DNA of 29,724 bases from Myxococcota bacterium (GTDB lineage Bacteria; Myxococcota_A; UBA9160; PR03), in NCBI GenBank assembly GCA_030066475.1, contig JASJBO010000096.1, positions 1 through 29,724 of the forward strand, written 5' to 3'. A program made the position numbers and the translations under genes. Every line of letters begins with the position of its first letter. The stretch's first letter is position 1. Positions 2,919-29,724 of the stretch are shown here, piece by piece. Under the pieces are notes generated by a model. That model made no database searches. It was not told the DNA's origin and saw only the letters and a list, made by a program, of their open reading frames with translations.

Positions 2919-4649
<1,731 letters not shown>

Positions 4650-14510: not shown

Positions 14511-14594
14511 ATCCTTTAGGTGCCCGGGGGCGGACCCGGGTGACGCGAGCTGCGTGCCTGTTGCCGGCGGGCTGCGTCCGATAGCGTGCGGCCG

Positions 14595-15410
14595 ATGACG
14601 GAGGGACCGCGGCGCGCGCTGATCCTCGCCGGACGGCGCGGGAACGTGGATTCCCTGGCCGTGTCCGCCGGCGTGCCGCACCGCGCGCTGATCGAGGTCG
14701 GCGGCCAGCCGATCCTCGAGCGCGTGGTGGCGGCCCTGCGCGAGGCCGGTGTCGGGGCGATCCACGTGTGCAGCGACGACGCGTCGCTTCCCGAGGCCAC
14801 GCCGACGCTCGCCGCGCTCCACGCCGCCGGGGCGCTGCTCCACCAGCCCGCCGCCGCGTCGCCCGCGGCGAGCGTGGCCGCCTTCCTCGAGGGCTGCGCC
14901 GACGGCGAGAGCGTGCTCGTGACGACTGCCGACCACGCGCTGCTGAGCGCCGAGATGGTCGAGCACTTCGGGCGCGAGGCGGCGCAGGCGCAGGCCGACG
15001 TGGTGGTGGCCGTGGTCGAGGCCGCGCGGGTGCGCGCGCGCTTCCCCGACGCGCGGCGCACCTTCATCCCGCTCGCCGACGGGGCGGTGACCGGCGCCAA
15101 CCTGTTCTGGATGCGCGCCTCGCGCGCGCAGCGGGTGGCGCGCCTGTGGATCCGCGCCGAGAGCGTGCGCAAGCGACCCTGGCGGCTCGTCGCGCTGTTC
15201 GGCCCCGGCGCGCTGCTGCGCTTTGCGCTGCGGCGGCTGTCGCTCGACGCGGCGCTCGAGCGCGTATCGCGCGCGGCCGAGGCCCGCGTGGAGGCCGTGC
15301 GCATGCCCTTCGCCGAGTGCGCCGTGGACGTCGACACCGAGCCGGATCTGGAGCTGGTGCGCGGGATCGCGGGCGCAGCGCTCAGAGCGTCCGACGGCCC
15401 TCCGGCTTGA
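14595..15410 (+). CDS. MobA-like nucleotidyltransferase (NTP transferase)
   Basis: A 271-residue protein starting with RRALILAGRRGN, the nucleotide-binding loop of MobA/GlmU/CDP-ME synthase-type nucleotidyltransferases, then PHRALIEVGGQPILERVVAAL, a standard acceptor-side helix. TTADHALLSAEM contains the metal-binding Asp of the second motif and VDVDTEPDLELV near the C-terminus is the family D-x-D-x-x-x-D type end. GRRGN replaces the usual GGxGTRM, so this is a divergent clade. ATG 14595 is used; a GTG nine bases earlier is also possible, neither has a clear Shine-Dalgarno. It overlaps the metallophosphoesterase gene by 29 bp at the 3' ends. A CTP:phosphoalcohol role in headgroup activation is a hypothesis from the neighbouring lipid kinase. 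Confidence 0.78.
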   Translation: MTEGPRRALILAGRRGNVDSLAVSAGVPHRALIEVGGQPILERVVAALREAGVGAIHVCSDDASLPEATPTLAALHAAGALLHQPAAASPAASVAAFLEGCADGESVLVTTADHALLSAEMVEHFGREAAQAQADVVVAVVEAARVRARFPDARRTFIPLADGAVTGANLFWMRASRAQRVARLWIRAESVRKRPWRLVALFGPGALLRFALRRLSLDAALERVSRAAEARVEAVRMPFAECAVDVDTEPDLELVRGIAGAALRASDGPPA

Positions 15411-16329
15411 ACTCGCCCGAGGCCGGGTCGTAGCCGCGGATCTCGCAGCCGATCTCGCCCTCGGGGCCGATGCGGTAGATGTGGTAGCGCGCGCGCCGCT
15501 CGGGCCGGTGGCCGACGTCCGAGGCCGAGGGCACCGAGACGACCGGAATCGGCGCCTGCGGTCCGGGCACGGACTCGATGCTGGTGCGGTGGGTGTGGCC
15601 GTGCAGGATCAGCTCGGCGCCCGTGCGCGCCAGCACCGCGCGCAGCGCCTCGGCGTCGTCGAGCTGGCGCCGGGGCGCCTGGCCGCAGGGCAGCGGCGGG
15701 TGGTGGAGCAGCACGATGCGGAACACGTCCACGCCGCCGAGCTGCGCGAGCGCCGCCTCGGCACGGGCGAGCTGCTGTGGACCCAGCCGGCCGGTGGCGA
15801 GCCACGGCGCCGTGGGAAGCGCGCTCGAGAGCCCGACGAACGCGATCCGGTCGCGGCGGCGCACGTAGGGAAACCCGCTCCCGAACTCGGCGCGGCCGGC
15901 GCGGGACGCGCGCCCCGCGGGGTCGTCGCCCCGCATATAGGCACCCCAGGACGCCCAGCGCTCCTCGCCCCGGAAGCCCCCATAGGCGTCGTGGTTGCCT
16001 GGAACCAGCGAAACGCGCTGCGGGGGCCCAATTCGCTCGAGAATTGCCGCCGCTCTGCCGATCTCCGAACGGAGCCCGATCTGGGTGAGGTCTCCGGTGA
16101 TGGCCACGTGGTGGGTCTCGACGCTCGACAGGTCCCTCAGCAGCGCCTCGACCACCTCCGGGCGGTGGGCGTGGCGCCGCCGCAGCCGCCACGAAGCGAA
16201 GCCCAGCCCGCGCTTGCCGAATAATTCCCACGGCGCATCGATCCGAACCTCGGTGGCATGGAGGTCGGAGAGATGAGCGAGCAGGAACCCGCCGTCCCCT
16301 CGGGGATGCTCGAGGCTACCATCCAACAC
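15382..16329 (-). CDS. Calcineurin-like metallophosphoesterase
   Basis: A 315-residue enzyme with all the dimetal motifs of the calcineurin-like family: DLH (D22, H24), GDLT (D80), GNHD (N112-D114), the LLHH pair (208-209) and HGHTH (242-246). No signal peptide, so cytoplasmic. It resembles the Icc/GpdQ/UDP-diacylglucosamine hydrolase broad group; members hydrolyse cAMP, glycerophosphodiesters or UDP-activated lipid A precursors, and the motifs do not separate these. The start is GTG 16329, directly followed by TTG. The gene converges with and overlaps the nucleotidyltransferase, and its start faces the secreted CrtC/AttH-like gene over 132 bp. A headgroup phosphatase or phosphodiesterase role with the lipid kinase is possible by context. 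Confidence 0.88.
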   Translation of the reverse strand: MLDGSLEHPRGDGGFLLAHLSDLHATEVRIDAPWELFGKRGLGFASWRLRRRHAHRPEVVEALLRDLSSVETHHVAITGDLTQIGLRSEIGRAAAILERIGPPQRVSLVPGNHDAYGGFRGEERWASWGAYMRGDDPAGRASRAGRAEFGSGFPYVRRRDRIAFVGLSSALPTAPWLATGRLGPQQLARAEAALAQLGGVDVFRIVLLHHPPLPCGQAPRRQLDDAEALRAVLARTGAELILHGHTHRTSIESVPGPQAPIPVVSVPSASDVGHRPERRARYHIYRIGPEGEIGCEIRGYDPASGEFKPEGRRTL

Positions 16330-16461: not shown

Positions 16462-17538
16462 ATGCCCCCGATGCGCTGCCACCGGTGGATCGTCGCCGCG
16501 CTGATCGCCGCCCTCGCCGGGCTGGTGGCGGCGACGACGCCGCGCGACCCGGGACGCGGTGCGCCCGCCGTGCGGCTGCCGGACGCCGAGTTCGGCGGCG
16601 ACTACTGGGACCTGGTCGCGCGCTTCGACTCGGGCCACCACCTGTTCGCGCAGGCGGCCGTCACGAACATGGGACTCGGCGACCACAAGGCGGCCGTGTT
16701 CGGCTTCATCGTGACGCCCGAGGGCGAGGAGATCCCGTTTCGCAGGACCGAGAACCGCGGCGGCTGGCGCCTGTCGCCGGACGGCTCGCGCATGGACCTG
16801 CGCTCGATCGTGCTCGACACGGCCGCCCCGACCCGCTCGCTCGTGGTCGACAAGAAGGAGATCGAGATCGACCTGGCGATCGAGGCGGCGCCGAGCCCGG
16901 CGTGGGAGGCGCGGCCCGGCGACCGCTGTCCGGTCGACGTGCTCGACGTGGCCAGCCCCGTGCGCGGCTCGTACTGGCTCGCCGAGACCGACGAGCGCGT
17001 GGAGCTGGTGGGGAGCGCGACGCTCACGCACCGCTGGATGTCGGGCCTCGAGGCCGAGTGCGTCCAGCGCCGGGTCGAGTTCTTCGGGCTCGAGGCGGAG
17101 CTGGGCGTGTACTTCTCCGAGGTGACCACGCCGGAGGGGGCCGTGCACCGCTGGTCGGTGGCGCGGCGCGGCGACCGGCTCGAGATGGATCGCGGCGCTG
17201 CCCAGGTGGAGCTCGCCTGGCGCGGCGACGTCAGGGGCTTCCCGCAGCCGACCGCGATCGACCTCGAGGGCACGGCGCTCGCGCTGCACGTGGACGTCGA
17301 CGAGCCCGTGCTGGTGGTCGAGCCGCTCGCGCGGGTGTCCGAGCCCTGGCGCGGCTTGCTCGAGCGGCTCACCCGGCCGCTGCTGCGCTTCAGCCCGGCG
17401 CCGTTCCACCACGCGTCGAGCGGCGAGGAGGCCTGGCACGAGGGGCGCGGCGTCGTGAAGGTGTCGTACCTGAACCCGCTACCTTCCGAGGTCCCCTCGA
17501 CTGCCCCCGCCAACCCCGTCCCGGGGAGGGATCGATGA
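16462..17538 (+). CDS. Secreted lipocalin-like protein, CrtC/AttH-like (tentative)
   Basis: A 358-residue protein with a signal peptide (CHRWIVAALIAALAGLVAATT). The mature part is all-beta, with a DYWDLVARFDSGHHLFAQAAVTN opening, FGFIVTPEGEEIPF, then two weakly related halves; this is the pattern of the AttH/CrtC (hydroxyneurosporene synthase) calycin-like fold. No catalytic residues are certain. The ATG at 16462 is chosen since GAGG lies 11 bases before it and the signal peptide begins there; ATG 16471 is possible. Its stop overlaps the lipid kinase start in an ATGA arrangement, so the two are coupled. A role in handling a hydrophobic ligand in the periplasm fits the fold and the context but is not proven. 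Confidence 0.6.
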   Translation: MPPMRCHRWIVAALIAALAGLVAATTPRDPGRGAPAVRLPDAEFGGDYWDLVARFDSGHHLFAQAAVTNMGLGDHKAAVFGFIVTPEGEEIPFRRTENRGGWRLSPDGSRMDLRSIVLDTAAPTRSLVVDKKEIEIDLAIEAAPSPAWEARPGDRCPVDVLDVASPVRGSYWLAETDERVELVGSATLTHRWMSGLEAECVQRRVEFFGLEAELGVYFSEVTTPEGAVHRWSVARRGDRLEMDRGAAQVELAWRGDVRGFPQPTAIDLEGTALALHVDVDEPVLVVEPLARVSEPWRGLLERLTRPLLRFSPAPFHHASSGEEAWHEGRGVVKVSYLNPLPSEVPSTAPANPVPGRDR

Positions 17539-18491
17539 AGATCGGCGTCCTGAGCAATCTGCGGGCCGGCAAGCGCGACTCGAAGGTCGAATCGGTGCTC
17601 GGGTTCCTGCGCCAGCACCCCGAGATCCTGCGGATCGAGACCGAGAGCGACGCGGACGTCTCCGACGCGCTCGCCCACTTCCAGCGCGAAGGGGTCGAGG
17701 TGCTGGTGCTGAACGGCGGCGACGGCACCGTGCAGCTGGGGCTCACGCACCTGCTCGGGGGAGGCTGCTCCGGCTGGGACCCGTGGGTCGCGCCGATCCG
17801 GGGCGGGCGCACCAACATGACGGCAGCCGACCTCGGCGCGCAGCGCCATCCGGTCAAGGGACTCCAGGCGCTCGTGGCGGCGCGCAATGCCGCCAGCCTC
17901 GCCCAGCGCGAGGTGCGACGCGCGGTGATGCGGATCGAGCTGGGAGCGGGGCGTCCGCCGCTCCACGGGATGTTCCTCGGCGCCGGCATGCTGCACCGCG
18001 CCGTCGACTTCACGCACAAGAGCTTCCCGGAAGGGCGCGCGCAGGGCACCTTCGGAGCCGGCGTGGTGACGGCGATGCTGGTCGCCCGGGCGGCGCGGGG
18101 CAACGTGGCCGGCGTGCTCACGCCCGACAAGATGCGCATCTCCTGCAACGACGAGGGAGAGCAAACCGGCGAGGTCGTGCTCGCGATGGCCAGCACGCTC
18201 CACCGGCTGTTCCTGGGCCTGCGCCCGTTCTGGGGCGAGGGACCGGGACCCGTGCGGGTCACCACGATCGCCCCCGGTGCGAAGCGCTTCGGCCTGGCCG
18301 CACCCGGCGTGCTGTTCGGCCACCCGCCCCGCTGGACGCGGCCCGAGAACGGCTACGTGAGCCGCAACGTGCGGGAGGCTGCCATCCAGCTCGACGCCGG
18401 CCTCGTGCTCGACGGCGAGCTGTACGCGCCGGAGCCGGACCGCGTCGTCAAGGTGAGTGCGGTCGAGGGCGTTCGCTTCCTCCGTGCCTGA
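17535..18491 (+). CDS. Diacylglycerol/ceramide kinase-like lipid kinase (DAGK catalytic domain)
   Basis: A 318-residue DAGK_cat protein. NGGDGTV (60-66) is the ATP-binding GGDGT signature; VAPIRGGRTNMTAADLG (86-101) takes the place of the usual GTaNdfA segment, and the C-terminal DGELY (about 303) is the family's last motif. The GGRTNM form differs from common YegS/DgkB enzymes. ATP is used to phosphorylate a lipid hydroxyl: diacylglycerol, sphingoid base or ceramide. With a serine palmitoyltransferase and a ketosphinganine-reductase-like gene a few kilobases away, a ceramide or long-chain-base kinase, as reported for CpgB in Caulobacter, is a reasonable hypothesis. ATG 17535 overlaps the preceding stop and follows GGGAGGG. 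The next gene overlaps its end. Confidence 0.87.
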   Translation: MKIGVLSNLRAGKRDSKVESVLGFLRQHPEILRIETESDADVSDALAHFQREGVEVLVLNGGDGTVQLGLTHLLGGGCSGWDPWVAPIRGGRTNMTAADLGAQRHPVKGLQALVAARNAASLAQREVRRAVMRIELGAGRPPLHGMFLGAGMLHRAVDFTHKSFPEGRAQGTFGAGVVTAMLVARAARGNVAGVLTPDKMRISCNDEGEQTGEVVLAMASTLHRLFLGLRPFWGEGPGPVRVTTIAPGAKRFGLAAPGVLFGHPPRWTRPENGYVSRNVREAAIQLDAGLVLDGELYAPEPDRVVKVSAVEGVRFLRA

Positions 18492-19476
18492 GGGTGCGGC
18501 GCCGGCGACCCATCCGGACCTCGCCGCCCTCACCCGCTGGATTGCGGACGAGCTCGACGGGCCGGTCCCGGCCGCCATCCGCGGCGCGGCCGAGGCAATC
18601 CGCCGGCGCCATCGCGGCGCGGCGGCCGTGCTCTTCTACGGCTCCTGCCTGCGGCGCGACACCACCGAGGGCGTGCTCGACTTCTACGTGCTGGTCGACC
18701 GCTATCGCCCGGCCCACCGCTCGGCTCTCGTGGCGGCCCTGAACCGCCTGCTGCCGCCGAACGTCTTCTACTGGGAGGACGAGGTCGACGACGCCGGCAA
18801 GCTGCGCGCGAAGTACGCCGTGATCAGCACCGAGCAGTTCGCCCGCCGCGCGCGCCGCGCCAGCCCCGACTGCCGCATCTGGTCGCGCTTCTGCCAGCCG
18901 GCGCGGATCGCCTGGGTGCGCGACGAGGAGACGCGCCGGGCGGTCCACGACGCGGTCGTACGCGCCACCCTGACCGCCGCCGACTGGATGAGCAGCTGGC
19001 TGGACGCCGCCGGCGGCGTCCAGCGGGTGCGCCCGGCCGAGCTGTGGGTGCGCGGGTTTCGCGAGACCTACGGGGCGGAGCTGCGCGGCGAGAAGCTCGA
19101 CACCGTCGACGCCGTCTACCGCGAGCAGGGGGAGCGCTTCGATCGGCTGACGCCGCTGGCGCTACGCGCGCTCGCCGCGCACGGGCGGCTGCGCGTGCTC
19201 CAGCTCGAGCCCGAGATCCAGCTCGACGGGGACCCGGCGCGCCTGTCCCGCATGCGTCGCAGCTGGCGCGTGCGGCGCCCGCTCACCAAGGCCCTGGCCG
19301 TGCTGGGCCTGCTCAAGACCCCCGTCACCTTCGACGGCTGGGTCTCCTACGCGCTCTGGAAGGTCGAGCGCCACAGCGGCGTCCACGTCGAGGTCACCGA
19401 CCTCCAACGCCGCCACCCCCTCCTCTTCGGCTGGCCCGTCCTCTTCCGCCTGATCCGCCACCGCATCCTCCGCTAG
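18484..19476 (+). CDS. Nucleotidyltransferase-fold protein of unknown role, operon with lipid kinase
   Basis: About 330 residues. LFYGSCLRRDTTEGVLDFYVLVD (50-72) matches the GS...DxD nucleotidyltransferase core: G53-S54 after a hydrophobic strand and acidic residues D66 and D72. The TAM41/MMP37 phosphatidate cytidylyltransferase family has a comparable YGS...VDF core, so a CTP:lipid phosphate cytidylyltransferase is a candidate, at low confidence. The rest is arginine-rich and helical with no signal peptide. The start is uncertain: GTG 18484 overlaps the kinase stop by 8 bp; GTG 18457 is 9 codons earlier. Tight coupling with the lipid kinase suggests it uses the phosphorylated lipid. It is followed by the repeat cluster. 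I could not place it in a named family with certainty. Confidence 0.68.
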   Translation: MPEGAAPATHPDLAALTRWIADELDGPVPAAIRGAAEAIRRRHRGAAAVLFYGSCLRRDTTEGVLDFYVLVDRYRPAHRSALVAALNRLLPPNVFYWEDEVDDAGKLRAKYAVISTEQFARRARRASPDCRIWSRFCQPARIAWVRDEETRRAVHDAVVRATLTAADWMSSWLDAAGGVQRVRPAELWVRGFRETYGAELRGEKLDTVDAVYREQGERFDRLTPLALRALAAHGRLRVLQLEPEIQLDGDPARLSRMRRSWRVRRPLTKALAVLGLLKTPVTFDGWVSYALWKVERHSGVHVEVTDLQRRHPLLFGWPVLFRLIRHRILR

Positions 19477-19504
19477 CGGCCCGCGCGGCAGAAGCCCCCT
19501 GCAA

Positions 19505-19519
19505 GCGCCCGAAGGGCGC
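19505..19519 (+). repeat. Unit 1 hairpin
   Basis: GCGCCC, loop GAA, GGGCGC. Unit 2 has the same hairpin at 19600-19614. Confidence 0.75.
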
Positions 19520-19693
19520 GCGCAGCGAGCCGCAGGCGAGCGAAGTCCACCAAGACGCCGCCGCGCCGGCACCGCCGCCCTACGCGGGCACCCCTGCAAG
19601 CGCCCGAAGGGCGCGCGCAGCGAGCCGCAGGCGAGCGAAGTCCATCAAGACGCGCTCGCGCCGGCTACTCCTCCGTACGCGGGCACCCCGCAA

Positions 19694-19718
19694 GCGCCGC
19701 CGGTTCCTCCGGCGGCGC
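19694..19718 (+). repeat. Unit 3 hairpin, longer compensated stem
   Basis: GCGCCGCCGG, loop TTCCT, CCGGCGGCGC. The stem is ten pairs and differs in both arms from units 1 and 2, yet remains fully paired. Confidence 0.75.
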
Positions 19719-19748
19719 GCGCAGCGAGCCGTAGGCGAGCGAAGTCCC

Positions 19749-20822
19749 CTAGGGCCGGGCGGCGGAGCGTTCGAACAGGGAGCGGAGGGCGGCGAGGGCG
19801 CCGGGGGCCACCGTGTCGCGGTAGCCGGCGTCGGCGGGGAGCTCGGCCATCAGGCTGCGGTGGACGTGGCCGAGGCTGTGGTACGGCAGGCCGGGGACGA
19901 GATGGTGCAGGCCGTGGTAGCGCAGGCCGACGGGCGCGAAGAGCGCACCCAGCACCGGGAGGCCGGCGAGGTTGACCGAGTCGGCGAGCTGGCCGCGCAC
20001 GTCGAGCGACTCGCCGGGATTCTCGTAGCGGTGCGCGACGAGCGTGCGCAGGTGATTGAGCACGAGGATGCCGATGGCCACGACGTACCAGCGGGTGATC
20101 CACTCGGACCCGATCGCACCGGTCGCCAGCGCCGCGACGAACGCCCAGAAGGCCAGCGCCGCCCCCGCCTCGCCCAGTGCGAAGCGCCAGCGCGCGCGGC
20201 CGGTCGGGAGCGGCCGGACGTACTGCTCGTTGATCACGAGGGTGGACAGGCGCGCGATCAGCCAGCGGCGCAGCGGCGGCACCAGCCAGGAGAGCGGAGC
20301 GAGCACGCCCCAGCGCAGCGCGAGCACCGCCGGAAACACCGCCATCAGCAGCGTCGAGGCCACGATGCGCCAGGGGGGCCAGGTCGCGATCGGGGCGTAC
20401 TCCGGGTCGTCGGCCGTCCCGTAGGTGGAGCGGCGGTGATGCACGGCGTGCGAGCCCACGTACATCAGGCTCGGCACCTGCATCGGCGAGCCGACCAGCA
20501 CGCTCCAGACGGTCTCGAGGCCCGGGATCGCGCCGGCTCGCAGATGGGCCAGCTCGTGGATGAACAGCGCAGCGCGGTAGAGCGCCAGGGTCGCGACCAC
20601 CAGGGCGACCGCTGCAAGGCCGCCGTCGAGCCACCCGCACGCGACGAAGGCCGTCCAGCCGATCGCCGCGGAGGCCAGGACGTCGACCCAATACAGACGG
20701 GCGCGCGGCTCGAAGGCGCCCGGAAAGCGCCGGCGCAGCGCCGAGGGAGCCAGCGGCGACGCGGTCGCGCGCTCGTCCCGGCGTTCGTCTTCGACGGCTC
20801 GCGCCGAGGCTTCCATCGCCAC
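19749..20822 (-). CDS. Fatty acid desaturase family protein
   Basis: A 357-residue membrane di-iron enzyme. The histidine boxes are HELAH (89-93), HAVHH (125-129) and HGLHH (303-307), with further histidines at about 256 and 264 (NHLRTLVAHR), together the eight or more ligands of the membrane desaturase/hydroxylase superfamily. About four membrane segments flank the boxes. The segment DSVNLAGLPVLGALFAPVGLRYHGLHH resembles bacterial acyl-lipid desaturases; sphingolipid desaturases and hydroxylases share the superfamily, so specificity is open. GTG 20822 is favoured by an AAGGAGG site eight bases before it. It is 75 bp downstream of the serine palmitoyltransferase gene on the same strand, so modification of a sphingoid base or ceramide acyl chain is a good hypothesis. 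Confidence 0.88.
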   Translation of the reverse strand: MAMEASARAVEDERRDERATASPLAPSALRRRFPGAFEPRARLYWVDVLASAAIGWTAFVACGWLDGGLAAVALVVATLALYRAALFIHELAHLRAGAIPGLETVWSVLVGSPMQVPSLMYVGSHAVHHRRSTYGTADDPEYAPIATWPPWRIVASTLLMAVFPAVLALRWGVLAPLSWLVPPLRRWLIARLSTLVINEQYVRPLPTGRARWRFALGEAGAALAFWAFVAALATGAIGSEWITRWYVVAIGILVLNHLRTLVAHRYENPGESLDVRGQLADSVNLAGLPVLGALFAPVGLRYHGLHHLVPGLPYHSLGHVHRSLMAELPADAGYRDTVAPGALAALRSLFERSAARP

Positions 20823-20897: not shown

Positions 20898-22079
20898 TCA
20901 GATCGCTCCCAGCTCGCGTCCCACGCGGGCGATCGCATCGAGCGCCCGCTCCAGGTGCTCGCGGGTGTGCGTCGCCATGTAGGACGTGCGGATCATGGCC
21001 CGGCCGGGGGGGACCGCCGGGGTGATCACGCAGTTCACGAATACGCCTTCCTCGTCCAGACGGCGCACCATGTGGAACGCCGCCTCGTCCTCGCCGATCA
21101 CGATCGGGATGACCGGCGAGTCGGAGTGGCCGGTGTCGAAGCCGAGCGCTTCGAACTCGCGCTTCATGAAGTGCGTGTTCTCCCAGAGCTGCTTGCGGCG
21201 CTCCGGCTCGCGCTCGACGATCGACAGCGCTTCGAGGGCCGCGGCGGCCGAGGCGGGCGGCAGCGCGGCCGAGAAGATCTCGGAGCGCGCGTTGTGCTTG
21301 ATGTAGTCGATCACCGTGGCATCGCCCGCCACGAAGCCGCCCACCGTGGCGAGCGACTTCGAGAAGGTGCCCATCACGAGATCGACCTGGCTCTCGACCC
21401 CGAAGTGCTCGGGCGTGCCGCGCCCGTGCTCGCCGAAGACGCCCAGCCCGTGCGCGTCGTCGACCATCAGGCGCGCGCCGAAGCGCTCCTTCAGCTCGAC
21501 GATCTCGGGCAGCGGCGCCAGATCGCCCTCCATCGAATAGACCCCGTCGATCACGATCAGCTTGCCGCGGTCGTCAGGGACGTTGCCGAGCCGCTTCTCG
21601 AGGCTCTGCATGTCGTTGTGGAGGAACTTGACCATGCGCGCGAAGCCGAGCCGCGCGCCGTCGATGATGCAGGCGTGGTCGAGGCTGTCGAGGATCGCGA
21701 CGTCATGGCGGCCGAGCAGGCACGACAAGACGCCGACGTTCACGCCGTAGCCGGTCGGGAAGGTCACCGCCGCGTCGCAGCGCATGAAGCGGGCGATGCG
21801 CTCCTCGAGCTCGGCATGCAGGTCGAGCGTGCCGTTGAGCAGCCGCGAGCCCGCACAGCCGGTGCCGTAGCGCTCCAGCGCGCGCGCGGCCGCCTCCTTC
21901 ACGGCGGGATGCGTGGTGAGGCCGAGGTAGCTGTTCGAGCCGAGCATGATCATGCGCCGGCCGTCGACCTCGACCTCGGGGTCCTGCCCCGAGGAGATCT
22001 CCCGGAAATAGGGATAGACGCCGGCTCTGCGGAGCTCACCGGCGAGCGCGTAGTCGTGGCACTTGCGGAAGACGTCCAA
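20898..22079 (-). CDS. spt: Serine palmitoyltransferase-like PLP enzyme (alpha-oxoamine synthase)
   Basis: A 393-residue fold-type I PLP enzyme of the alpha-oxoamine synthase family. Features: LGSNSYLGL (46-54), H135 for stacking on PLP, VDDAHGLG (206-213), and the Schiff-base lysine K241 in GTFSKS. Family members differ at this site: 8-amino-7-oxononanoate synthase and glycine C-acetyltransferase usually have GTLGKA/GTxGK, whereas serine palmitoyltransferases have TFSKS-like sequences. It would condense L-serine with palmitoyl-CoA (or acyl-ACP) to 3-ketodihydrosphingosine in the cytoplasm. The start is probably TTG 22079, with AGGGAA before it; a GTG 12 codons earlier is possible. It is divergent from the KDSR-like SDR over 60 bp and upstream of a desaturase. 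Confidence 0.82.
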   Translation of the reverse strand: MDVFRKCHDYALAGELRRAGVYPYFREISSGQDPEVEVDGRRMIMLGSNSYLGLTTHPAVKEAAARALERYGTGCAGSRLLNGTLDLHAELEERIARFMRCDAAVTFPTGYGVNVGVLSCLLGRHDVAILDSLDHACIIDGARLGFARMVKFLHNDMQSLEKRLGNVPDDRGKLIVIDGVYSMEGDLAPLPEIVELKERFGARLMVDDAHGLGVFGEHGRGTPEHFGVESQVDLVMGTFSKSLATVGGFVAGDATVIDYIKHNARSEIFSAALPPASAAAALEALSIVEREPERRKQLWENTHFMKREFEALGFDTGHSDSPVIPIVIGEDEAAFHMVRRLDEEGVFVNCVITPAVPPGRAMIRTSYMATHTREHLERALDAIARVGRELGAI

Positions 22080-22139
22080 GGGCGTTTCCCTGCTCGGCTG
22101 CCGAATGTAACGCACCGCGCCGTATCGAGGAACGAGCCC

Positions 22140-23027
22140 ATGTCCGAGCCCGCCGCGCCCGCCCGCTCGTCGTCCTCGCGCTCGGCGTCGCCCTGGGCGG
22201 GCCGGCGAGCGCTCGTGACGGGCGGCTCCAGCGGAATCGGCCTTGCCGTGGCGCGCCGCCTGGTTGCGGCAGGCGCTCGCGTGGCGATCGTCGCGCGGCG
22301 CGAGGCGCCGCTCCGGGCCGCCTGCGACGCGCTGCAGCAGGCGGCGCCGGGCCCGATCCGCCCCACCTGGGTTCCGCTGGACGTGAGCGACGCGGAGGCC
22401 GTGCAGGCGGGCGTCGATCGCTGCGCCGATGCCCTGGGGGGGCTCGACCTGCTGGTCAACAACGCCGGTGCCGCCTGGGCGGGGACCTTCCTCGAGACTC
22501 CGCCCGAGCGCTTCCGCGAGCTGCTCGAGGTGAACTTCCTCGGCGTCGTCCACGTGACCCGCGCGGCCCTGCCGCATCTCGTGCGCGCCGGGCGCGGCGA
22601 CGTGGCGATCGTGTCGTCGTTCGCCGGGCTGTTCGCGCCCTACGGCTACACCGCCTACGCCCCGACCAAGTATGCCGCGACCGGCTTCGCCGAGGCGCTG
22701 CGGCAGGAGCTGAGACCGCACGGCATCGGCGTCTCGGTCGTCTTCCCGACCGACACCGACACGCCCCAGCTCGCGGAGGAGAACCGGCACAAGCCGGCGG
22801 TGACACGCGAGATCTCGGGCACCGCGCGCGTGCTGACACCCGACGAGGTGGCCGACGCGCTGCTCGAGGGCGTCGCGCGGGGCCGCTTCTGGATCGTGCC
22901 CGGGCTGCGCGCGCGCGCCCTCGCCGCGTTGATCCGCCACGTGCCCAGCCTGGCGCGCCGCGTCGTCGACTACGACGTGGCCCGCGTGCTGCGCCGGCAG
23001 CCGGGCGCGCGAGGGGAACCGGGCTGA
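22140..23027 (+). CDS. SDR resembling 3-ketodihydrosphingosine reductase (KDSR)
   Basis: A 295-residue SDR. Motifs: TGGSSGIG (27-34), NNAG (107-110), catalytic S160, and Y173xxxK177 (YAPTK). After the cofactor site there is FPTDTDTPQLAEEN and KP (about 202-219) then TREISGTARVLTPDEVA. From memory this matches the eukaryotic KDSR segment PPDTDTPGFAEEN...KP...SE, an unusual signature not found in most SDRs. KDSR reduces 3-ketodihydrosphingosine to dihydrosphingosine with NADPH. The N-terminal 20 residues are Ser/Ala/Pro-rich without an anchor helix. ATG 22140 follows GAGGAA. Being divergent from the SPT-like gene by 60 bp supports the assignment: the two consecutive steps share one control region. 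The LptF-LptG gene follows. Confidence 0.85.
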   Translation: MSEPAAPARSSSSRSASPWAGRRALVTGGSSGIGLAVARRLVAAGARVAIVARREAPLRAACDALQQAAPGPIRPTWVPLDVSDAEAVQAGVDRCADALGGLDLLVNNAGAAWAGTFLETPPERFRELLEVNFLGVVHVTRAALPHLVRAGRGDVAIVSSFAGLFAPYGYTAYAPTKYAATGFAEALRQELRPHGIGVSVVFPTDTDTPQLAEENRHKPAVTREISGTARVLTPDEVADALLEGVARGRFWIVPGLRARALAALIRHVPSLARRVVDYDVARVLRRQPGARGEPG

Positions 23028-23080: not shown

Positions 23081-25258
23081 GTGGCCACCGCCACGGGGTT
23101 CACCCTGGGCGGGCTCACGCTCGTCATGATGATGGTCGACCTCGTCGGCTACGCCGAGCTCGTCATCAACCGCGGCTTCGGCGTGGACGAGGTCGGTCGC
23201 ATCGCGCTCTACCGCACGCTCCCGATCGTGACGCGCACGCTGCCCTTCGCGCTGCTGATCGGCTCGCTGACCGCGCTCGGCCGCATGGGCGCCGACCGCG
23301 AGATCATCGTGCTGCGCGCGAGCGGGATCTCGCCGCTGCGCCTGATGGGACCGGTGTTCGGCATCGGCCTGCTGCTGGGGCTGGGGACCACGTATCTGGC
23401 GCTCGAGGTGTCGCCGCGCGCAAACCGCGCGCTCGAGGCCACGCTGCGGGCTGCAGCACGGGAGCACCCGGGCAGCGCGCTGCGCAGCGGCTCGGTGGCG
23501 CGCTTCGGGAGGTGGCGGATCGAGGCGCGCGAGGTCTCGAGCAACGGGGAGGAGCTGCGCGGCGTGGTGCTGTGGATGCCGACCCTGGGCGAGACCGCCT
23601 TCGCGCAGTCGGGGCGGCTGAGCCGGACCGAGGAGGGCGGCGCCGAGGTGGTGCTCGAGGACGGCAGCTTCCTGATGACCGCCCAGGGGCGCCTGTCGCT
23701 GGTGCACTTCGAGCGGCTGCAGCGCGAGCTGGCAATCCGGCCGGCCGATCTGAAGTTCGTCGACGTCACCGAGGCGGCCTCGACGGCCGAGCTGCTCGCT
23801 CTCGCCGATCGGCCACAGCAGCCGCGCCGGCAGCGCCAGGCGCTCACCGAGCTGCACCGCCGCGTCGCCATGCCGCTCTCGACGGCGCTGTTCGGGCTGA
23901 TCGCGGTGCCCCTGTTCCTGGCGCGCGGCGGCACCTCGCGCGCCAGCGGCATCGTGCTGGGGATGGTCGCGACCCTGGTCTACTACGGACTGATCCAGCT
24001 CGGCGGCGGGCTCGCGCGCAGCGAGGACGTGCCGGTCGGCGCGGCGATCTGGCTGCCGAACGCGGTCCTGCTGGTGCTGGCGCTCGCCCTGGCGCGGCGC
24101 GCCCGCTCGAGCCGGAGCTCGCCGGGCCTGCAGATCGACTGGAGCGCGCTGCGCCCGCGCCTGCCCCGTCGGAAGCGCCCGCGGCGCCGCATCGGAGGCG
24201 GCGGACGCCGCATCCTCGACCGCTACGTGCTGCGCCACTTCCTCGAGCTGGCGGTGCTCTCGACCCTCGTGCTCGTGGTGGCGTACCTGCTGATCGACGT
24301 GATCGAGAACCTCAAGTGGTTCACCAAGTACCAGTCCACGCCCGACGAGGTGATGCGCTACTACAGCGCGCGCATCCCGATCCTGGTCTCGCGCATCCTC
24401 CCCTTCGCGCTGGTGATCGCCTCGGCGCTCACCGTCAGCGGGCTCGCCGCCACTGGCGAGCTGCTCGCGATGCGCGCTTGCGGGGTCGCAACGCGGCGCA
24501 CGGTGATCCCGATCCTGGTGAGCTGCGTCGGCGTGGCCGTCTTCTACAGCGTGCTGGCGAACGAGTGGGTACCCCGGGCCAGCGTCCGGGCCAGCCAGAT
24601 CAAGCACACCGAGATCAAGGACCGCAGCGGCGCGCGCCGCGCGCTGTGGTATCGCGACGGCGACACGCTCTACGAGATGGACTTCCTCGATCCGCTGGGT
24701 GGCGTCGCGCGCGGCGTCACGATCTACGAGCTCGACGAGCGGGGACTTCCGGCGAGCCGCATCGACGCGACCGAGGCGCGCCACCTGGGCGGCGGCAGCT
24801 GGCGCCTGGCGAACGCAGAGAAGCTCCTGATCGAGCCGGATGCGCTGCGCCCGGTGGAGCCGCCGCAGGACGTGAAGCTCGGCACCGAGCTGCCCTCGGA
24901 GGTGGAGACCAGCGACCTCTCGCTGGCCGCGCTGCGCGCGGCGATCGTCGAGGCCGACGAGGACGGCTACGACTCCACCTCCTTCCAGGTCGACCTGCAC
25001 GTGCGGCTGGCCGCGCCGCTCGCCTGCGTGGTGCTGCCCGCGCTCGCGCTCGCCTTCGCCGCGGCCGGCCCGCCGTTCCGCCGCAGCATCCAGATGATTG
25101 CGGCGACGCTGGTGATCGCACTCGCCTACGGCCTGCTGCTCGCCGGGGCGACGGCACTCGGCTACGGCAAGATGGTGCCGCCGCCGGTGGCGGGCTGGGG
25201 GCCAATCACGGTCGCGGGGCTGGGCGGCGCCTGGCTGGTGCGGCGGGGCCCCGGGTGA
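23081..25258 (+). CDS. lptF/lptG: Single-chain LptF-LptG fusion, LPS export permease
   Basis: A protein of at least 725 residues made of two complete YjgP/YjgQ-type permeases. Residues 1-340 are LptF-like: membrane helices, a large periplasmic beta-jellyroll domain (about 120-240), then three helices. A basic linker rich in R, K, S and G (about 345-375) leads to RILDRYVLRHFLELAVL (about 377), a canonical LptG start, followed by a second full permease with its own periplasmic domain. In known systems LptF and LptG are separate proteins that form a heterodimer with LptB2. The GTG at 23081 may be too late, as amphipathic sequence like a LptF N-terminus continues upstream to a CTG at 23024, which has GAGGGG seven bases before and overlaps the SDR stop. 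The ATPase LptB is not in the window. Confidence 0.88.
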   Translation: MATATGFTLGGLTLVMMMVDLVGYAELVINRGFGVDEVGRIALYRTLPIVTRTLPFALLIGSLTALGRMGADREIIVLRASGISPLRLMGPVFGIGLLLGLGTTYLALEVSPRANRALEATLRAAAREHPGSALRSGSVARFGRWRIEAREVSSNGEELRGVVLWMPTLGETAFAQSGRLSRTEEGGAEVVLEDGSFLMTAQGRLSLVHFERLQRELAIRPADLKFVDVTEAASTAELLALADRPQQPRRQRQALTELHRRVAMPLSTALFGLIAVPLFLARGGTSRASGIVLGMVATLVYYGLIQLGGGLARSEDVPVGAAIWLPNAVLLVLALALARRARSSRSSPGLQIDWSALRPRLPRRKRPRRRIGGGGRRILDRYVLRHFLELAVLSTLVLVVAYLLIDVIENLKWFTKYQSTPDEVMRYYSARIPILVSRILPFALVIASALTVSGLAATGELLAMRACGVATRRTVIPILVSCVGVAVFYSVLANEWVPRASVRASQIKHTEIKDRSGARRALWYRDGDTLYEMDFLDPLGGVARGVTIYELDERGLPASRIDATEARHLGGGSWRLANAEKLLIEPDALRPVEPPQDVKLGTELPSEVETSDLSLAALRAAIVEADEDGYDSTSFQVDLHVRLAAPLACVVLPALALAFAAAGPPFRRSIQMIAATLVIALAYGLLLAGATALGYGKMVPPPVAGWGPITVAGLGGAWLVRRGPG

Positions 25259-25398: not shown

Positions 25399-26679
25399 TT
25401 GGATGAGAGCCGCGCCGGCGCGGCCCGCGCTGCCGAGGCGCCCGAGCCCTTCCGGGTGCCGCCGCGCACCTGGCTCCTGATGGGGCATCGCGCCGGCGAC
25501 AACTCGCAGGTGCTGGCCCTCGGCGAGGCGATCGGCTGGCCCTTCGAGATCAAGCGCTTCGTCTACGCCCGCCACGAGATCCTGGTGAACTGGCCGTTCG
25601 CGACCACGCTGGCGGGCGTGAAGACGGGCCGCGAGCAGCTCCAGCCCCCGTGGCCGGAGCTGATCCTGACCGCGGGCCGCCGCAACGAGCCGATCGCGCG
25701 CTGGATCCGCAAGCAGGCGTCGCACCCGATCAAGCTCGTGCACGTGGGACGCCCGTGGAAGACGGTCGGGTACTGGGACCTGGTGGTCACCACGCCGCAG
25801 TACCGGCTGCCGCACGTCGCCAACGTGCTGCACAACGAGACGCCGCTGCACCGGGTCGTGCCCGAGCGGCTCGCCGAGGCGGCGGCCGAGTGGGAGCCTC
25901 GGCTGGCCCACCTGCCGCGTCCCTACATCGCCGTGCTGGCGGGCGGCAACAGCGGGCCCTACCCGTTCGATCCCGAGTCGGGCGCGCGGCTGGGCCGCGA
26001 GGCGAGCGCGATGGCGCGCGCCCTCGGCGGCTCGCTGCTGATCACGACCAGCGCGCGCACGCTGCCCGAGACCGTCGAGGCGCTGCTCGGTGCCGTGGAC
26101 GTGCCCTCGCACGTCTACCGCTGGGCGCCCGGCCAGCCCGACAATCCCTACTTCGGCTTCCTCGCGCTCGCCGACCGGCTGATCGCGACCGGCGACAGCG
26201 TGTCGATGATGACCGAGGCCTGCGCCACCGGACGACCGGTCTATCTGTTCGACACGGGCGAGGGCTTCTTCTCGATGCGCGCGGACGATCCGGCGGGAGC
26301 GTCGGACCTGCCGATCTGGCGGCGCCTCGACCGCACGCACCTGAAGGCCAGCATCTATCGCCACGCGATGCGCTACGGGCCGCGGCGCTGGACGCGCGAC
26401 ATCCGGATCGTGCAGCGCCGCCTGGTCGACTCCGGGCGCGCCGCGTGGCTCGGCGAGGGCGAGCCGAGCGGATCGCCGCCGCCGCTGCGCGACCTCGAGC
26501 GCGCGGCGGAGCGGGTCCGCGGCCTGTTCGGCGCGCAGTCGCCCGCGTCGGGGGCCCCTTCGCGGGCGGACGAGGACGGAGCTACGCCGCGAGCGGCGGC
26601 GTCTTCTCCAACAGCTCGAGCGCGTCGCGACGCAGGTGGCCCTGCTGCATCTCCTGGCGCAGCAGGCCCTCCTCGATGA
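25399..26679 (+). CDS. ELM1/DUF1022 family protein (GT-B-like, envelope-associated)
   Basis: A 426-residue member of the ELM1-type (mitochondrial fission ELM1, DUF1022) family, which in bacteria often stands near lipid A and LPS genes. Recognisable segments: TWLLMGHRAGDNSQVLALGEAIGWP, ILTAGRRNEPIARWIRK, VVTTPQYRLP, IAVLAGGNSGPY, LITTSARTLPETVEAL and IATGDSVSMMTEACATGRPVY; the last two resemble the nucleotide-sugar binding half of GT-B glycosyltransferases. Biochemical function is not established. The start is TTG 25399. The C-terminal 35 or so residues are Ala/Pro/Arg-rich and lie antisense to the GT8-like gene with a 98-bp overlap, so they are probably not conserved. It follows the LptF-LptG gene by 140 bp. 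Confidence 0.83.
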   Translation: MDESRAGAARAAEAPEPFRVPPRTWLLMGHRAGDNSQVLALGEAIGWPFEIKRFVYARHEILVNWPFATTLAGVKTGREQLQPPWPELILTAGRRNEPIARWIRKQASHPIKLVHVGRPWKTVGYWDLVVTTPQYRLPHVANVLHNETPLHRVVPERLAEAAAEWEPRLAHLPRPYIAVLAGGNSGPYPFDPESGARLGREASAMARALGGSLLITTSARTLPETVEALLGAVDVPSHVYRWAPGQPDNPYFGFLALADRLIATGDSVSMMTEACATGRPVYLFDTGEGFFSMRADDPAGASDLPIWRRLDRTHLKASIYRHAMRYGPRRWTRDIRIVQRRLVDSGRAAWLGEGEPSGSPPPLRDLERAAERVRGLFGAQSPASGAPSRADEDGATPRAAASSPTARARRDAGGPAASPGAAGPPR

Positions 26680-27484
26680 CGCCCTGCTCCACGCACTCGC
26701 GCAGCAGGCCGAAGAAGAAGCGCTCCTGATTGCGGTCGGGGTGGCGCAGGTAGCGGCCCAGCAGCGCGTGGTCGCCGAGCCACTCGCGGCGCTTGCGCAT
26801 CAGCCAGTCGATCGGCGCGATGCCGGTGGCGCGGTCGCCGGGCACGAAGTCGACCGGCAGCCCGGTCTTCCAGGGCTGCGTCCAGCGCCGCGTGTTGTGC
26901 AGCAGCTTGGTCTCCGGCGTGAGCCGGTCGAAGTGGTTCCACTCGTCCTCGAGCAGCCCGATGCTCTCCTGGGGCTCCAGGTTCAGCGTGATCCAGGGCG
27001 CGTAGTCGCGATCGCCGCTGAACAGCTCTCGGAACTGTGCCTCGCACTGCCAGTGCCCGAGCCGAGCGCAGTCGAGCAGCATCACGCTCGACGCCCAGCA
27101 GGTGCTCTTCTTCCAGCCGGCACGCCGCCGGCACAGAATCGCGCGACCCCCCATGTCGCGCGCCAGCAGCTCGTGGATGTCGCTCAGCGCGAAGATGTCG
27201 GGGTCGATCACGACGGCGCGGCCCTGGTAGCCCATCAGCTCGGGCGGCATGAAGCGCAGCGGCGTGAACGACTGGAGGTCCCCGTTGTGCCACACGCGCC
27301 AGGCACCGTCGCGCAGGTAGCGGCGGTTCTCGAACTCCTCGAAGAAGGGGTAGTGCTCGCGCTCGAGGATGCGCACGTCGAAGGCGTCGGCGTGGGCAGA
27401 GCTGCGCCGCAGCGAGTGCGCGGACACGAGCGCCCCCACGAGCTGCTGGCGGTTCGTGTGCACGAAGACACAGGGTCGGGTCAC
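26582..27484 (-). CDS. GT8-like glycosyltransferase
   Basis: A 300-residue protein with the N-terminal VFVHTNRQQLVGALVSAHSL, typical of GT-A enzymes of the GT8 type, and a DxD metal motif at D94/D96 (VVIDPDIFAL) in the usual place after the donor-binding strands. Later segments include ESIGLLEDEWNHFDRLTPET and LLHNTRRWTQPWKTG, where the H of LLHN could be the second metal ligand. No signal peptide, so it works at the inner face of the membrane. The GTG at 27484 overlaps the TGA of the sulfotransferase upstream in the GTGA form with GGGGAGG eight bases before it. The coupled pair suggests a sugar that is transferred and then sulfated. Donor and acceptor cannot be told. Confidence 0.78.
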   Translation of the reverse strand: MTRPCVFVHTNRQQLVGALVSAHSLRRSSAHADAFDVRILEREHYPFFEEFENRRYLRDGAWRVWHNGDLQSFTPLRFMPPELMGYQGRAVVIDPDIFALSDIHELLARDMGGRAILCRRRAGWKKSTCWASSVMLLDCARLGHWQCEAQFRELFSGDRDYAPWITLNLEPQESIGLLEDEWNHFDRLTPETKLLHNTRRWTQPWKTGLPVDFVPGDRATGIAPIDWLMRKRREWLGDHALLGRYLRHPDRNQERFFFGLLRECVEQGVIEEGLLRQEMQQGHLRRDALELLEKTPPLAA

Positions 27485-28404
27485 GGCGCGGCCTCCCCGT
27501 AGCCGTATGTGGGATCCAGCTTCGAGTGGACGAAGCCGTCGATCTCGGCGACCTCCTCGTCGCTGAAGTAGTCGCGGTAGCCGCCGACCACGGCGCGGCG
27601 GACCTTGTACGAGTCGGGATTGTCTCGATCGCCGGGCCGGTAGCGCCCGCCGAACGGCCACAGGCCGCCCTGGCGCTCCTGCTCGCGCATGTTCTCCACC
27701 GACGCGAAGCGCACCGCCTCGCGCACGGCGCTCTCGCTCGCGGCGCTTCCGACGAAACGCACGATCCGGTCGAGCTCGCGCTCGGTGTCGGCCTTCAGGT
27801 CCTCGTAACGGACCACCAGCACCTCGCCGACGGCGGCCGCCTCGCGCGCCCACAGGTTCATGAAGTCCACGATGCGCGGCAGCCCGGCCATGTCGCCCAT
27901 CACGAACTCGAACATCGAGACGTCGGAGCCCTCGCGCCCGGCCGGGAAGTCGTTGATGTCGATCTTGTGCTGCCGCATGCGGAACTTCCACTGGAAGAAC
28001 TGCGAGACCGCGACGTCCTGGGGCGAGCGCACCAGCAGCACCACGCGCTTGCCGTAGAAGTCGCGCTTCGAGCCGGCGTTGCCGGTGTAGTCGCCGAGGT
28101 AGGTGTCGTGGGTGAAGAAGATGCGGGGGATCGCCGGGTTGAGGGCGTGGAAGTTGTCGAAGCCCAGCACCGAGCCCGCGGGGAGGCCGAGGCTCTGCTG
28201 GTAGAAGCGCGAGAGCAGCACGCGCAGCCAGGTGCGGCCGCTCTTGCCGTACGAGACCAGCGCGACGTCTGCGCGCCGCAGCTTCTGGACCTGCTCCCAG
28301 CCCCGGAGCCAGCGCTCGATCCGCCGGAAGCGCGCCGCCGGCAGCCAGAACCCGAACGGCCGCAGCAGCCTCCGGGGGAGTTTCTCGAAGAAGTTGCGCA
28401 GCAT
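27481..28404 (-). CDS. Sulfotransferase domain protein (Sulfotransfer_1)
   Basis: A 307-residue PAPS sulfotransferase. The 5'-phosphosulfate loop is SYGKSGRTWLRVLL (51-64), the 3'-phosphate motif RSPQDVAVSQFFQW (126-139), and the C-terminal RPGDRDNPDSYKVRRAVVGGYRDYFS follows the family pattern RxGxxGxWK. The closest types are aryl/alcohol-like sulfotransferases seen in bacterial glycan clusters. The ATG at 28404 (MLRNFFEKLPRRLLRP) is preferred; a GTG at 28503 would add a Pro-rich 33-residue extension. A basic amphipathic N-terminus could touch the membrane. It is translationally coupled to the GT8-like gene and diverges from the acyltransferase over 147 bp. It is the fourth sulfotransferase in the window and unlike the other three. 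Confidence 0.9.
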   Translation of the reverse strand: MLRNFFEKLPRRLLRPFGFWLPAARFRRIERWLRGWEQVQKLRRADVALVSYGKSGRTWLRVLLSRFYQQSLGLPAGSVLGFDNFHALNPAIPRIFFTHDTYLGDYTGNAGSKRDFYGKRVVLLVRSPQDVAVSQFFQWKFRMRQHKIDINDFPAGREGSDVSMFEFVMGDMAGLPRIVDFMNLWAREAAAVGEVLVVRYEDLKADTERELDRIVRFVGSAASESAVREAVRFASVENMREQERQGGLWPFGGRYRPGDRDNPDSYKVRRAVVGGYRDYFSDEEVAEIDGFVHSKLDPTYGYGEAAP

Positions 28405-28551
28405 GTCTGCGGGGTTCCGAAGGGGGGCGGCCTGACGATACCAGTCAGCCGGCGGAGGGCCAGACCGCTCGTCCCCGCTGGGAAGCGAGGGGCCGCCGGC
28501 CACTGGGCCCGGTCACACCCGTTTTGGTAGCTTGCATCGGTTCCTCGGGGG

Positions 28552-29724
28552 ATGGTCTTGGCCAAGCATCCGTTCGTGCCCGAGCGCCTGCGAGCCCAGA
28601 TCGTCGCACGGCCAGGGCTCCAGCGAGTGATGTGGCGCATCGAGGCGCTGGTCGTGGGTGCCGTGTGGGCGCTGGTCGGAGCGCTCCCGGTCGACCGCGC
28701 CTATCGGTTCGGCCGCGCGCTGGGGCGCATCCTCGGCCCGAAGCTGCGCAAGACCGAGCAGGTGCGCGCCAACCTGACGAATGCCCTGCCCGACCGGACG
28801 CCCGCCGAGATCGAGGCGCTGGTGCGCGAGGTATGGGGTGGCCACTTCGGGGCTGCCGCCGAGTTCCCGCACTTCGGGCGGATCGCCGCCGCCGGCGAGG
28901 AGCGGATCGCGTTCGAGGTGCGCGGCGACGTGCGCGGCCTGCGGGAGCCCGGGCGCCCGATGATCCTGGTCACGGCGCACACCGGAAACTGGCAGCTCGC
29001 GACCACGGTGATGGCGCGGCTCGGGCGCCGGCTGACCTCGGTGTACGCGCCCGAGTCGAACCCCTTCGTGGACGCCTTCATCAACCGCTGCCGGGAAGGG
29101 CTCCACTGCGACCTCGTCCCGCGCGACGGCAGCGTCAAGGCCCTGATGCGCGTGCTCGCCGCGGGCGGGTCGATCGGGATCGTCGGCGACAATCGCGTGA
29201 ACGAGGGCGAGTCGATCCTGCTGTTCGGCAAGCCCACGCAGATCAGCCAGGTGCCCGCCAAGCTGGCCCTGCGCTTCGACGCCGAGCTGGTGCCGGCCTG
29301 GGTCGAGCGGCTCGAGGACTCCCACTTCCGCGTGACCGTGTTCGACCCGATCCGCCCGGAGCCCCACGCCACGCCCCGCGAGCAGGCCCGCCAGATGACC
29401 CGCAGGCTGGTCGACCACTTCGAGACCTGGTTCCGCGCCCGCCCCGAGCAGTGGATCTGCACCCGCCGCTACTGGCCCAAGCCCCAGAACGTCGCCAAGC
29501 TCCCCCCCGTCCCCGACTCCGCAGGCCCCGACCAACGCACCCCCTCGCCCAGCGCCCGAAGCACCCCCGCAAGCGCCGTAGGCGCGCGCAGCGAGCCGAA
29601 GGCGAGCGAAGTCCACCAAGTAGGCGCGCGCAGCGAGCCGAAGGCGAGCGAAGTCCACCAAGTAGGCGCGCGCAGCGAGCCGAAGGCGAGCGAAGTCCAC
29701 CAAGTAGGCGCGCGCAGCGAGCCG
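28552..29724 (+). CDS. LpxL/HtrB-like lysophospholipid acyltransferase with repeat-derived C-terminal tail (open at window end)
   Basis: At least 391 codons without stop. Residues about 20-315 are a LpxL/HtrB-family acyltransferase: an N-terminal membrane segment near 28-45, HTGNWQL at 143-149 where the family has HxxxxE/D, GDNRVNEGE, the PAKLALRF stretch and the C-terminal EQWICTRRYWPKP. The usual acid after the catalytic histidine is Q148 here. Lipid A secondary acyltransferases and PIM acyltransferases share this fold. After residue 320 the sequence becomes Pro/Ser/Ala-rich and, from codon 343 on, is encoded by the 42-bp repeats, which stay in frame and give the peptide VGARSEPKASEVHQ repeatedly. 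The ATG at 28552 follows GGGGG. The real end of the protein lies outside the window. Confidence 0.84.
   Translation, partial: MVLAKHPFVPERLRAQIVARPGLQRVMWRIEALVVGAVWALVGALPVDRAYRFGRALGRILGPKLRKTEQVRANLTNALPDRTPAEIEALVREVWGGHFGAAAEFPHFGRIAAAGEERIAFEVRGDVRGLREPGRPMILVTAHTGNWQLATTVMARLGRRLTSVYAPESNPFVDAFINRCREGLHCDLVPRDGSVKALMRVLAAGGSIGIVGDNRVNEGESILLFGKPTQISQVPAKLALRFDAELVPAWVERLEDSHFRVTVFDPIRPEPHATPREQARQMTRRLVDHFETWFRARPEQWICTRRYWPKPQNVAKLPPVPDSAGPDQRTPSPSARSTPASAVGARSEPKASEVHQVGARSEPKASEVHQVGARSEPKASEVHQVGARSEP
29569..29724. repeat. Repeat unit expanded as 42-bp tandem array (continues beyond window)
   Basis: A unit beginning GCAAGCGCC at 29569 with hairpin GCGCC-GTA-GGCGC (29573-29585) runs into the same core as the 19.5-kb cluster. 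The part from GGCGCGCGCAGCG onward then repeats at 29581, 29623, 29665 and 29707, a 42-bp period, with no visible change between copies. Only the first copy keeps the left arm of the hairpin; the later ones have the right arm alone. The reading frame of the acyltransferase passes through. Confidence 0.9.

Follow-up and report, generated by a model that had tools for sequence, protein, structure and literature searches.

Among the described systems closest to the locus studied here is the Caulobacter crescentus sphingolipid region CC_1152-CC_1168 (PMC11324152; this and the other papers are cited for what their available text states). That region contains a serine palmitoyltransferase (SPT), a lipid kinase with a GGDG motif (CpgB), nucleotidyltransferases, a phosphoesterase, LptF2/LptG2 and a flippase. 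All of these have apparent counterparts in the 29,724-nucleotide contig JASJBO010000096.1 (hereafter the window, meaning the whole stretch analysed), where a putative SPT gene lies divergently beside a gene for a short-chain dehydrogenase/reductase (SDR) assigned to the 3-ketosphinganine reductase (KDSR) family. The Caulobacter enzyme CpgB phosphorylates ceramide (PMC10331486), CpgD makes cytidine diphosphate (CDP)-glycerate and CpgC acts by a mechanism still unidentified (PMC12275187). CpgC carries a CDP-diacylglycerol (CDP-DAG) synthase InterPro domain, which led other authors to suggest a nucleoside diphosphate-activated ceramide, whilst CpgA carries a CMP-displacing (CDP-alcohol) domain (PMC11324152). 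Hydroxylation of the amide-linked acyl chain has been reported for a DesA-type enzyme encoded elsewhere in Caulobacter (CC_0202; cited in PMC11324152).

The presence of KDSR in bacteria has already been published and is not new in itself (PMC9278070, PMC12134224). BT_0972 of Bacteroides thetaiotaomicron is likewise an SDR that converts 3-ketosphinganine to sphinganine but, unlike the window gene, is not clustered with SPT, and homologues were reported in Bdellovibrio and Myxococcus (PMC9278070). In PfSgaABC a bacterial KDSR homologue also stands beside an alpha-oxoamine synthase (AOS), with a chain supplied by a polyketide synthase (PKS), whereas the SPT of the window stands alone and its cluster is of the phosphosphingolipid type; the same 2025 paper describes the KDSR step as one that bacteria other than Bacteroides and Prevotella seldom use in their pathways (PMC12134224).

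We read the locus as a gene cluster with which an uncultured deltaproteobacterial/Myxococcota-like bacterium makes and exports sphingolipids, KDSR standing in the place of another reductase, here called SDR-B, and we put the probability of this reading at about 0.7. Compared with Caulobacter, its SPT belongs to the Sphingobacterium/deltaproteobacterial type, KDSR takes the place of CerR, LptF and LptG are fused, and a CDP-alcohol transferase is seen in the window's relatives only. The E. coli proteins CerR, AcpR, AasR and the YghO-type ceramide synthase (bCerS), tried as candidates, gave no significant match in the window. The original prediction had proposed a sphingolipid locus unlike the CerR route of Caulobacter and with no ceramide synthase visible in the window; both points stand, the second for the E. 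coli YghO type. It had also presented a locus of two genes, both of which are real, within what proved to be a much larger locus (Table 1). The homologues listed came mostly from metagenomes or metagenome-assembled genomes, the few named ones being from Enhygromyxa salina, Deltaproteobacteria, Proteobacteria and Myxococcota bacterium, which makes an uncultured bacterium of that group the probable source.

Table 1. Features of the window, with the evidence for each assignment.
Feature	Position	Strand	Evidence
spt, putative serine palmitoyltransferase (alpha-oxoamine synthase), 393 aa, TTG start	20898..22079	-	bit scores, NCBIfam, tree
kdsr, putative 3-ketosphinganine (3-dehydrosphinganine) reductase-family SDR, 295 aa	22140..23027	+	motif, tree, profile competition, pair in 3 relatives
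divergent intergenic region, 60 bp, presumed shared promoter	22080..22139	.	spacing
des, membrane fatty-acid desaturase/hydroxylase family	19749..20816	-	PF00487 92 bits; 81 bp downstream of spt, same strand
lipid kinase, DAGK_cat family with GGDG	17535..18491	+	PF00781 31.4 bits; alignment
orphan protein, Tam41-like CTP:lipid-phosphate cytidylyltransferase fold	18484..19476	+	fold; overlaps kinase gene by 8 bp
conserved protein F4, family not recognised	16470..17538	+	directly upstream of kinase; 16/25 clustered loci including the window; no Pfam match
calcineurin-like metallophosphoesterase F5	15382..16329	-	14/25 loci; relative L199:9554-10480 is PF00149
MobA/CTP-transferase-like nucleotidyltransferase F2	14586..15410	+	PF12804; CTP_transf_3 below cut-off; homologues in relatives' clusters
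LptF-LptG fusion, probable lipid export permease	23081..25258	+	LptF 272, LptG 324 bits, both above NCBIfam cut-offs
ELM1-family protein	25399..26679	+	PF06258 213 bits; adjoins LptFG in L224, L226 also
MsbA-like ABC transporter F13, candidate flippase	2919..4649	-	HepA 275, MsbA 240 bits, both below cut-off

The divergent arrangement and the gap of exactly 60 bp were as predicted, and a consensus scan of positions 21900-22300 gave no promoter (no sigma-70-like site) or terminator signal. The same divergent pair was found in three relatives (G078, G126 and G068; G and L numbers denote genomes and loci), which are the three top SDR scorers among the 235 genomes searched. On sequence grounds the pair is not a chance match, as the SPT reaches 462 bits against the Sphingobacterium SPT (Protein Data Bank (PDB) ID 3a2b). 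Its scores were 332 bits with a Kbl/BioF-type enzyme, 296 with the Sphingomonas SPT and 276 with the cysteate fatty-acyltransferase 28eh. The TFSKS motif expected in this pyridoxal phosphate (PLP)-dependent enzyme is present (reading GTFSKS) and is kept in most close SPTs, with TFSKA in L146. A tree of 40 rows, picked from the homologue matches together with two rows from E. coli and three from the PDB (ALAS and the cysteate enzyme being outside the set), placed the window enzyme in a 30-row clade (99/99) that holds both solved bacterial SPTs, apart from E. coli Kbl and BioF, and a BioF/Kbl identity was ruled out by this tree. The best NCBIfam family was SerpalmtaseCFB (NF047600, Bacteroidetes-type), at 568.5 bits and below the curated cut-off of 640; the enzyme is therefore filed as an SPT from the tree and the solved-structure scores, which support the predicted identity, and not as an NF047600 equivalog. 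Bacteroidetes and deltaproteobacterial SPTs have been placed in one subgroup of the bacterial enzymes (PMC9386255).

The homology to the cysteate enzyme (275.7 bits) raises the alternative that the PLP enzyme makes a sphingolipid analogue, either a cysteate-derived sulfonolipid or an alanine-derived 1-deoxy-sphingoid base, whose 3-keto product the SDR reduces. The 3-ketocapnine reductases have indeed been found as KDSR homologues (PMC11211663), and 1-deoxyceramides of the Black Sea were tentatively assigned to Desulfobacterota and/or Bacteroidota (PMC11334938). Given the 462 bits with a solved SPT against 276 with the cysteate enzyme, and the grouping of the window enzyme with solved SPTs in a tree that did not include the cysteate enzyme, we judge an analogue to be distinctly improbable.

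The assignment of the SDR to the KDSR family, a broadly bacterial family, agrees with the original prediction and comes from motif, tree and profile competition. The KDSR-type C-terminal signature is present and reads FPTDTDTPQLAEENRHKPAVT. In an alignment of the window SDR with 25 homologues, 47-65% identical to it, the catalytic Ser160-Tyr173-Lys177 and the glycine motif were invariant in all 26 sequences, as were most positions of the C-terminal motif, and many of the homologues are labelled "3-dehydrosphinganine reductase" by JGI. The full DTDTP...E...KP..T motif was confined to loci scoring at least 212 bits with the family profile. A placement of the SDR in a non-KDSR clade with DTDTP widely shared was not observed. 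The signature had been attributed to eukaryotic KDSR. The shrimp KDSR P0334 carries the full motif, reading DTDTPGFEEENKTKPTET; among 105 matches to a fungal TSC10 query, fragments included, DTDTP occurred in only 1 and [DE]N..[KR]P..[TS] in 51. When 82 of the 96 TSC10 matches P0243-P0338 (those with 230 residues or more; 70 carry eukaryotic names and 12 are unnamed) were compared with competing profiles, 82/82 fitted the bacterial KDSR profile best, with a median margin of 108.5 bits and a minimum of 61.6 over three rival SDR profiles, which were narrower (8-10 sequences against 26). The window SDR itself scored 331 bits with the KDSR profile and 201 with the next group. A tree of 95 of the 166 prepared SDR rows put the bacterial family and the eukaryotic KDSRs together on one side, opposite 13 outgroup and 6 Bacteroidota SDRs (SH-like approximate likelihood ratio test 84), with the eukaryotic sequences nested inside the bacterial family near Anaerolineae, cyanobacterial and alphaproteobacterial rows.

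Linkage between this family and SPT-type genes was assessed in the best 80 loci of a profile scan of named genomes' contigs, a biased sample, with a KDSR line of 230 bits chosen after the scores were seen; the motif-bearing L042 (212 bits) falls below it. An AOS gene lay within 2 kb in 15 of the 39 loci with a KDSR-family SDR and in 4 of the 41 other SDR loci (Fisher P 0.0035). The 15 linked loci belong to Chloroflexota, Spirochaetota, Cyanobacteriota, Alphaproteobacteria and one deltaproteobacterium; in L020 the synthase sits inside a very long open frame. The label "eukaryote-like" given originally to the SDR thus points the wrong way, the family being widespread in bacteria and, in those 15 of 39 loci, close to an SPT-type gene. 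Linkage in several bacterial phyla also contrasts with the view of the KDSR step as unusual (PMC12134224), and is relevant to the debated order of steps and to the origin of eukaryotic KDSR. No report of SPT-KDSR clusters in this group was found by title among the literature matches listed.

The family is not tied strictly to SPT. Among the 235 genomes, all of one phylum, KDSR was detected in 41 (E 1e-45) and SPT in 46 (E 1e-100), with both in 6, and a second phylum had the KDSR family in 16 of 247 genomes. The 35 KDSR-positive genomes lacking this SPT (at E 1e-100) would fit an SDR whose substrate is some other long-chain 3-keto compound, for instance a ketone derived from a polyketide or a fatty acid, and which adjoins SPT incidentally. 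So would L126, in which a 2010-aa open reading frame near KDSR resembles a PKS by eye and has an AOS-type motif; this locus recalls PfSgaABC, the published PKS-derived sphingolipid cluster that includes a KDSR homologue (PMC12134224). Such a substrate seems to us very improbable for the window enzyme, as the divergent pair recurs in the three best-scoring genomes, the AOS linkage spans phyla, and KDSR and SDR-B are mutually exclusive.

This last pattern emerged from the 28 of 235 genomes with a close SPT (at least 575 bits). KDSR was present in three of them (G126, G078 and G068) at 415-431 bits, the next-best SDR among the 28 scoring 214. SDR-B, the reductase adjoining SPT in L201, reached at least 238 bits in 20 of the 28, in 0/3 of those with KDSR and in 0/6 controls without this SPT; the three KDSR genomes all fall among the eight lacking a strong SDR-B, for which the chance is 0.017 if kinship is ignored. 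We propose that KDSR replaced SDR-B in this sub-lineage, most relatives with the same SPT using SDR-B. SDR-B (L201:16058-16936) and its homologues form a reductase group linked with SPT both in this phylum and among Firmicutes, where related SDRs adjoin SPT in L065, L072 and L077, and in 12 of the 20 genomes the gene is within 2.2 kb of the Tam41-like gene described below. One Prevotella and one Flavobacterium SDR scored best with the SDR-B profile and not with the window KDSR family, from which BT_0972 may be of the SDR-B kind.

As to CerR, two Sphingomonas controls held homologues of 123 and 138 bits, and those in G059, G008 and G017 scored 102-119 and adjoin SPT in G059 and G017. The best score in the 28 close-SPT genomes was 64 bits, with none above this in the three KDSR relatives. 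The ceramide synthase YghO of E. coli BL21 has homologues that adjoin SPT in G059, G017, G124, G142 and G011, and others that lie on contigs other than that of SPT in 6 of the 28 close-SPT genomes.

Beyond des, the orphan protein matched the Tam41 fold (6ig2, 6ig4 and 7ecd, mitochondrial and bacterial CDP-DAG synthases) at about 15% identity. It had no match to Pfam or PDB sequence profiles and is therefore termed Tam41-like in fold rather than a Pfam Tam41 member; its setting beside SPT and a lipid kinase also sets it apart from Tam41. It may be likened to CpgC, and the kinase, with its DAGK_cat domain and GGDG, to CpgB (CC_1160), from the published descriptions. The kinase is proposed to act on ceramide or a long-chain base. 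Both genes were strong in 20 genomes and adjacent in 20/20. The desaturase-family protein has His boxes invariant in an alignment of homologues and occurs in 9 of the 235 genomes, all 9 of which also have SPT (P 2e-7, kinship ignored); in two Sphingomonas genomes its homologue adjoins a ceramide synthase homologue.

That these neighbours belong with SPT is open to the objection that SPT and KDSR make up a plain sphinganine module, next to which the kinase, the Tam41-like gene and LptFG lie by accident as glycerophospholipid or lipopolysaccharide (LPS) genes. In G126, G078 and G068 the SPT-KDSR pair is apart from the kinase cluster, on other contigs or about 80 kb off (G068), and among different genes; Tam41 is a mitochondrial CDP-DAG synthase by the titles of its structure entries; and the kinase and Tam41-like pair occurs without an SPT match in G013 and G239, the only 2 of 21 Tam41-like genomes of this kind. 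The remaining 19 of the 21, and 18 of the 21 kinase genomes, are close-SPT genomes. Moreover, in L211 the kinase gene immediately precedes SPT on the strand that they share, and a single 17-kb contig in L201 holds des, Tam41-like, kinase, phosphoesterase, nucleotidyltransferase, CDP-alcohol transferase, LptFG, SPT and SDR-B genes. We thus consider accidental neighbourhood unlikely.

Family memberships, linkage and co-occurrence in the proposed sphingolipid cluster are supported by sequence, fold and context, and from them we infer the substrates, the order of steps, a CDP-lipid intermediate and the export cargo. SPT would condense serine with an acyl thioester to give 3-ketosphinganine, which KDSR would reduce to sphinganine with NAD(P)H. 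The sphinganine would then be N-acylated to ceramide by an acyltransferase not recognised in the window, and the desaturase-family enzyme may hydroxylate or desaturate the lipid. The DAGK-type kinase would phosphorylate ceramide or the long-chain base, and the Tam41-like protein would use CTP to turn the lipid phosphate into a CDP-lipid for head-group addition. LptFG and the MsbA-like flippase would deliver the resulting lipid to the outer membrane. The steps may plausibly follow the eukaryotic order, and the kinase and Tam41-fold pair supports a lipid-phosphate activation step. More tentatively, and at somewhat less than even odds, there may exist a bacterial CDP-ceramide or CDP-long-chain-base route (DAGK-type kinase, Tam41-fold CTP activation, CDP-alcohol phosphotransferase) that explains the CpgC step, with the sphinganine reductase swapped among CerR, SDR-B and KDSR within one phylum. 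The Tam41-like enzyme may in this way account for an unsolved step in the addition of phosphate head groups to bacterial sphingolipids, and the overlap of its gene with a ceramide-kinase-like gene, clustered with SPT, makes the head-group step directly testable. No use of "CDP-ceramide" was found in the literature searched (5.39 million papers), most subscription journals being outside its coverage, and none of the Tam41 and sphingolipid matches listed concerned bacterial sphingolipids by title.

Several observations weigh against the cluster as we read it, in addition to the KDSR genomes lacking this SPT and the two Tam41-like genomes without an SPT match. G197, whose SPT is sister to that of the window, has neither KDSR nor SDR-B, which weakens a clean swap from SDR-B to KDSR, and four further close-SPT genomes are without a strong SDR-B (none in G063, G113 and G221; 179 bits in G101). 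The attachment of the eukaryotic KDSRs is not fixed, an approximately unbiased test not rejecting a position outside the family (p 0.417). Ceramide is assumed, the YghO-type synthase not having been found in the three KDSR genomes and the TLC-family (eukaryotic) synthases not having been searched. Nine of the 28 close-SPT genomes lack the Tam41-like gene, profiles of the kinase and Tam41-like protein matched nothing at E 1e-3 across 120 kb from two Sphingomonas genomes, and the co-occurrence P values take no account of shared ancestry or genome completeness. Finally, the window has no recognisable CDP-alcohol transferase, and its LptFG meets the ordinary cut-offs for LPS export and may simply export LPS.

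Export via LptFG is plausible because LptF/LptG adjoin SPT in E. coli BL21(DE3), are some 2 kb away in Sphingomonas L278 and are found in the Caulobacter region. The two are one fused protein also in L224:5204-7387 and L201:11686-13944. Relatives' clusters add a nucleotidyltransferase, a metallophosphoesterase and a CDP-alcohol phosphatidyltransferase, with LptFG in some, and the MsbA-like transporter is within the cluster in 5 of the 25 loci, that of the window among them. L226 keeps the window order of kinase, Tam41-like, LptFG, ELM1, F17 (unannotated) and sulfotransferase, and so does L224 apart from two additional genes that follow ELM1; Tam41-like and LptFG genes are 220 and 268 bp apart in L226 and L224, respectively, where the window holds des-spt-kdsr.

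Other genes of the window were also noted. An aspartyl/asparaginyl beta-hydroxylase-family gene (PF05118) occurs at 12725-13522 (minus strand) and at L207:8651-9415; as its homologue (41% identity, 201 bits) lies directly downstream of SPT in G197, its product may hydroxylate sphingolipids. Sulfotransferase-family genes occur at 5675-6514 and 27481-28503, and 2142-2873 resembles one by eye. In L224 and L226 the gene at 27481-28503 stays close to LptFG and ELM1, as does an unannotated neighbour (26582-27484), and its product might act on the exported lipid. Repeats with a GGCGCGCGCAGCGAGCCG.AGGCGAGCGAAGTCC core were observed at 19493-19747, within the 272 bp that separate the orphan gene from des, and at 29559-29698, at the end of the window; the first set sits at the edge of the stretch absent from L224 and L226.

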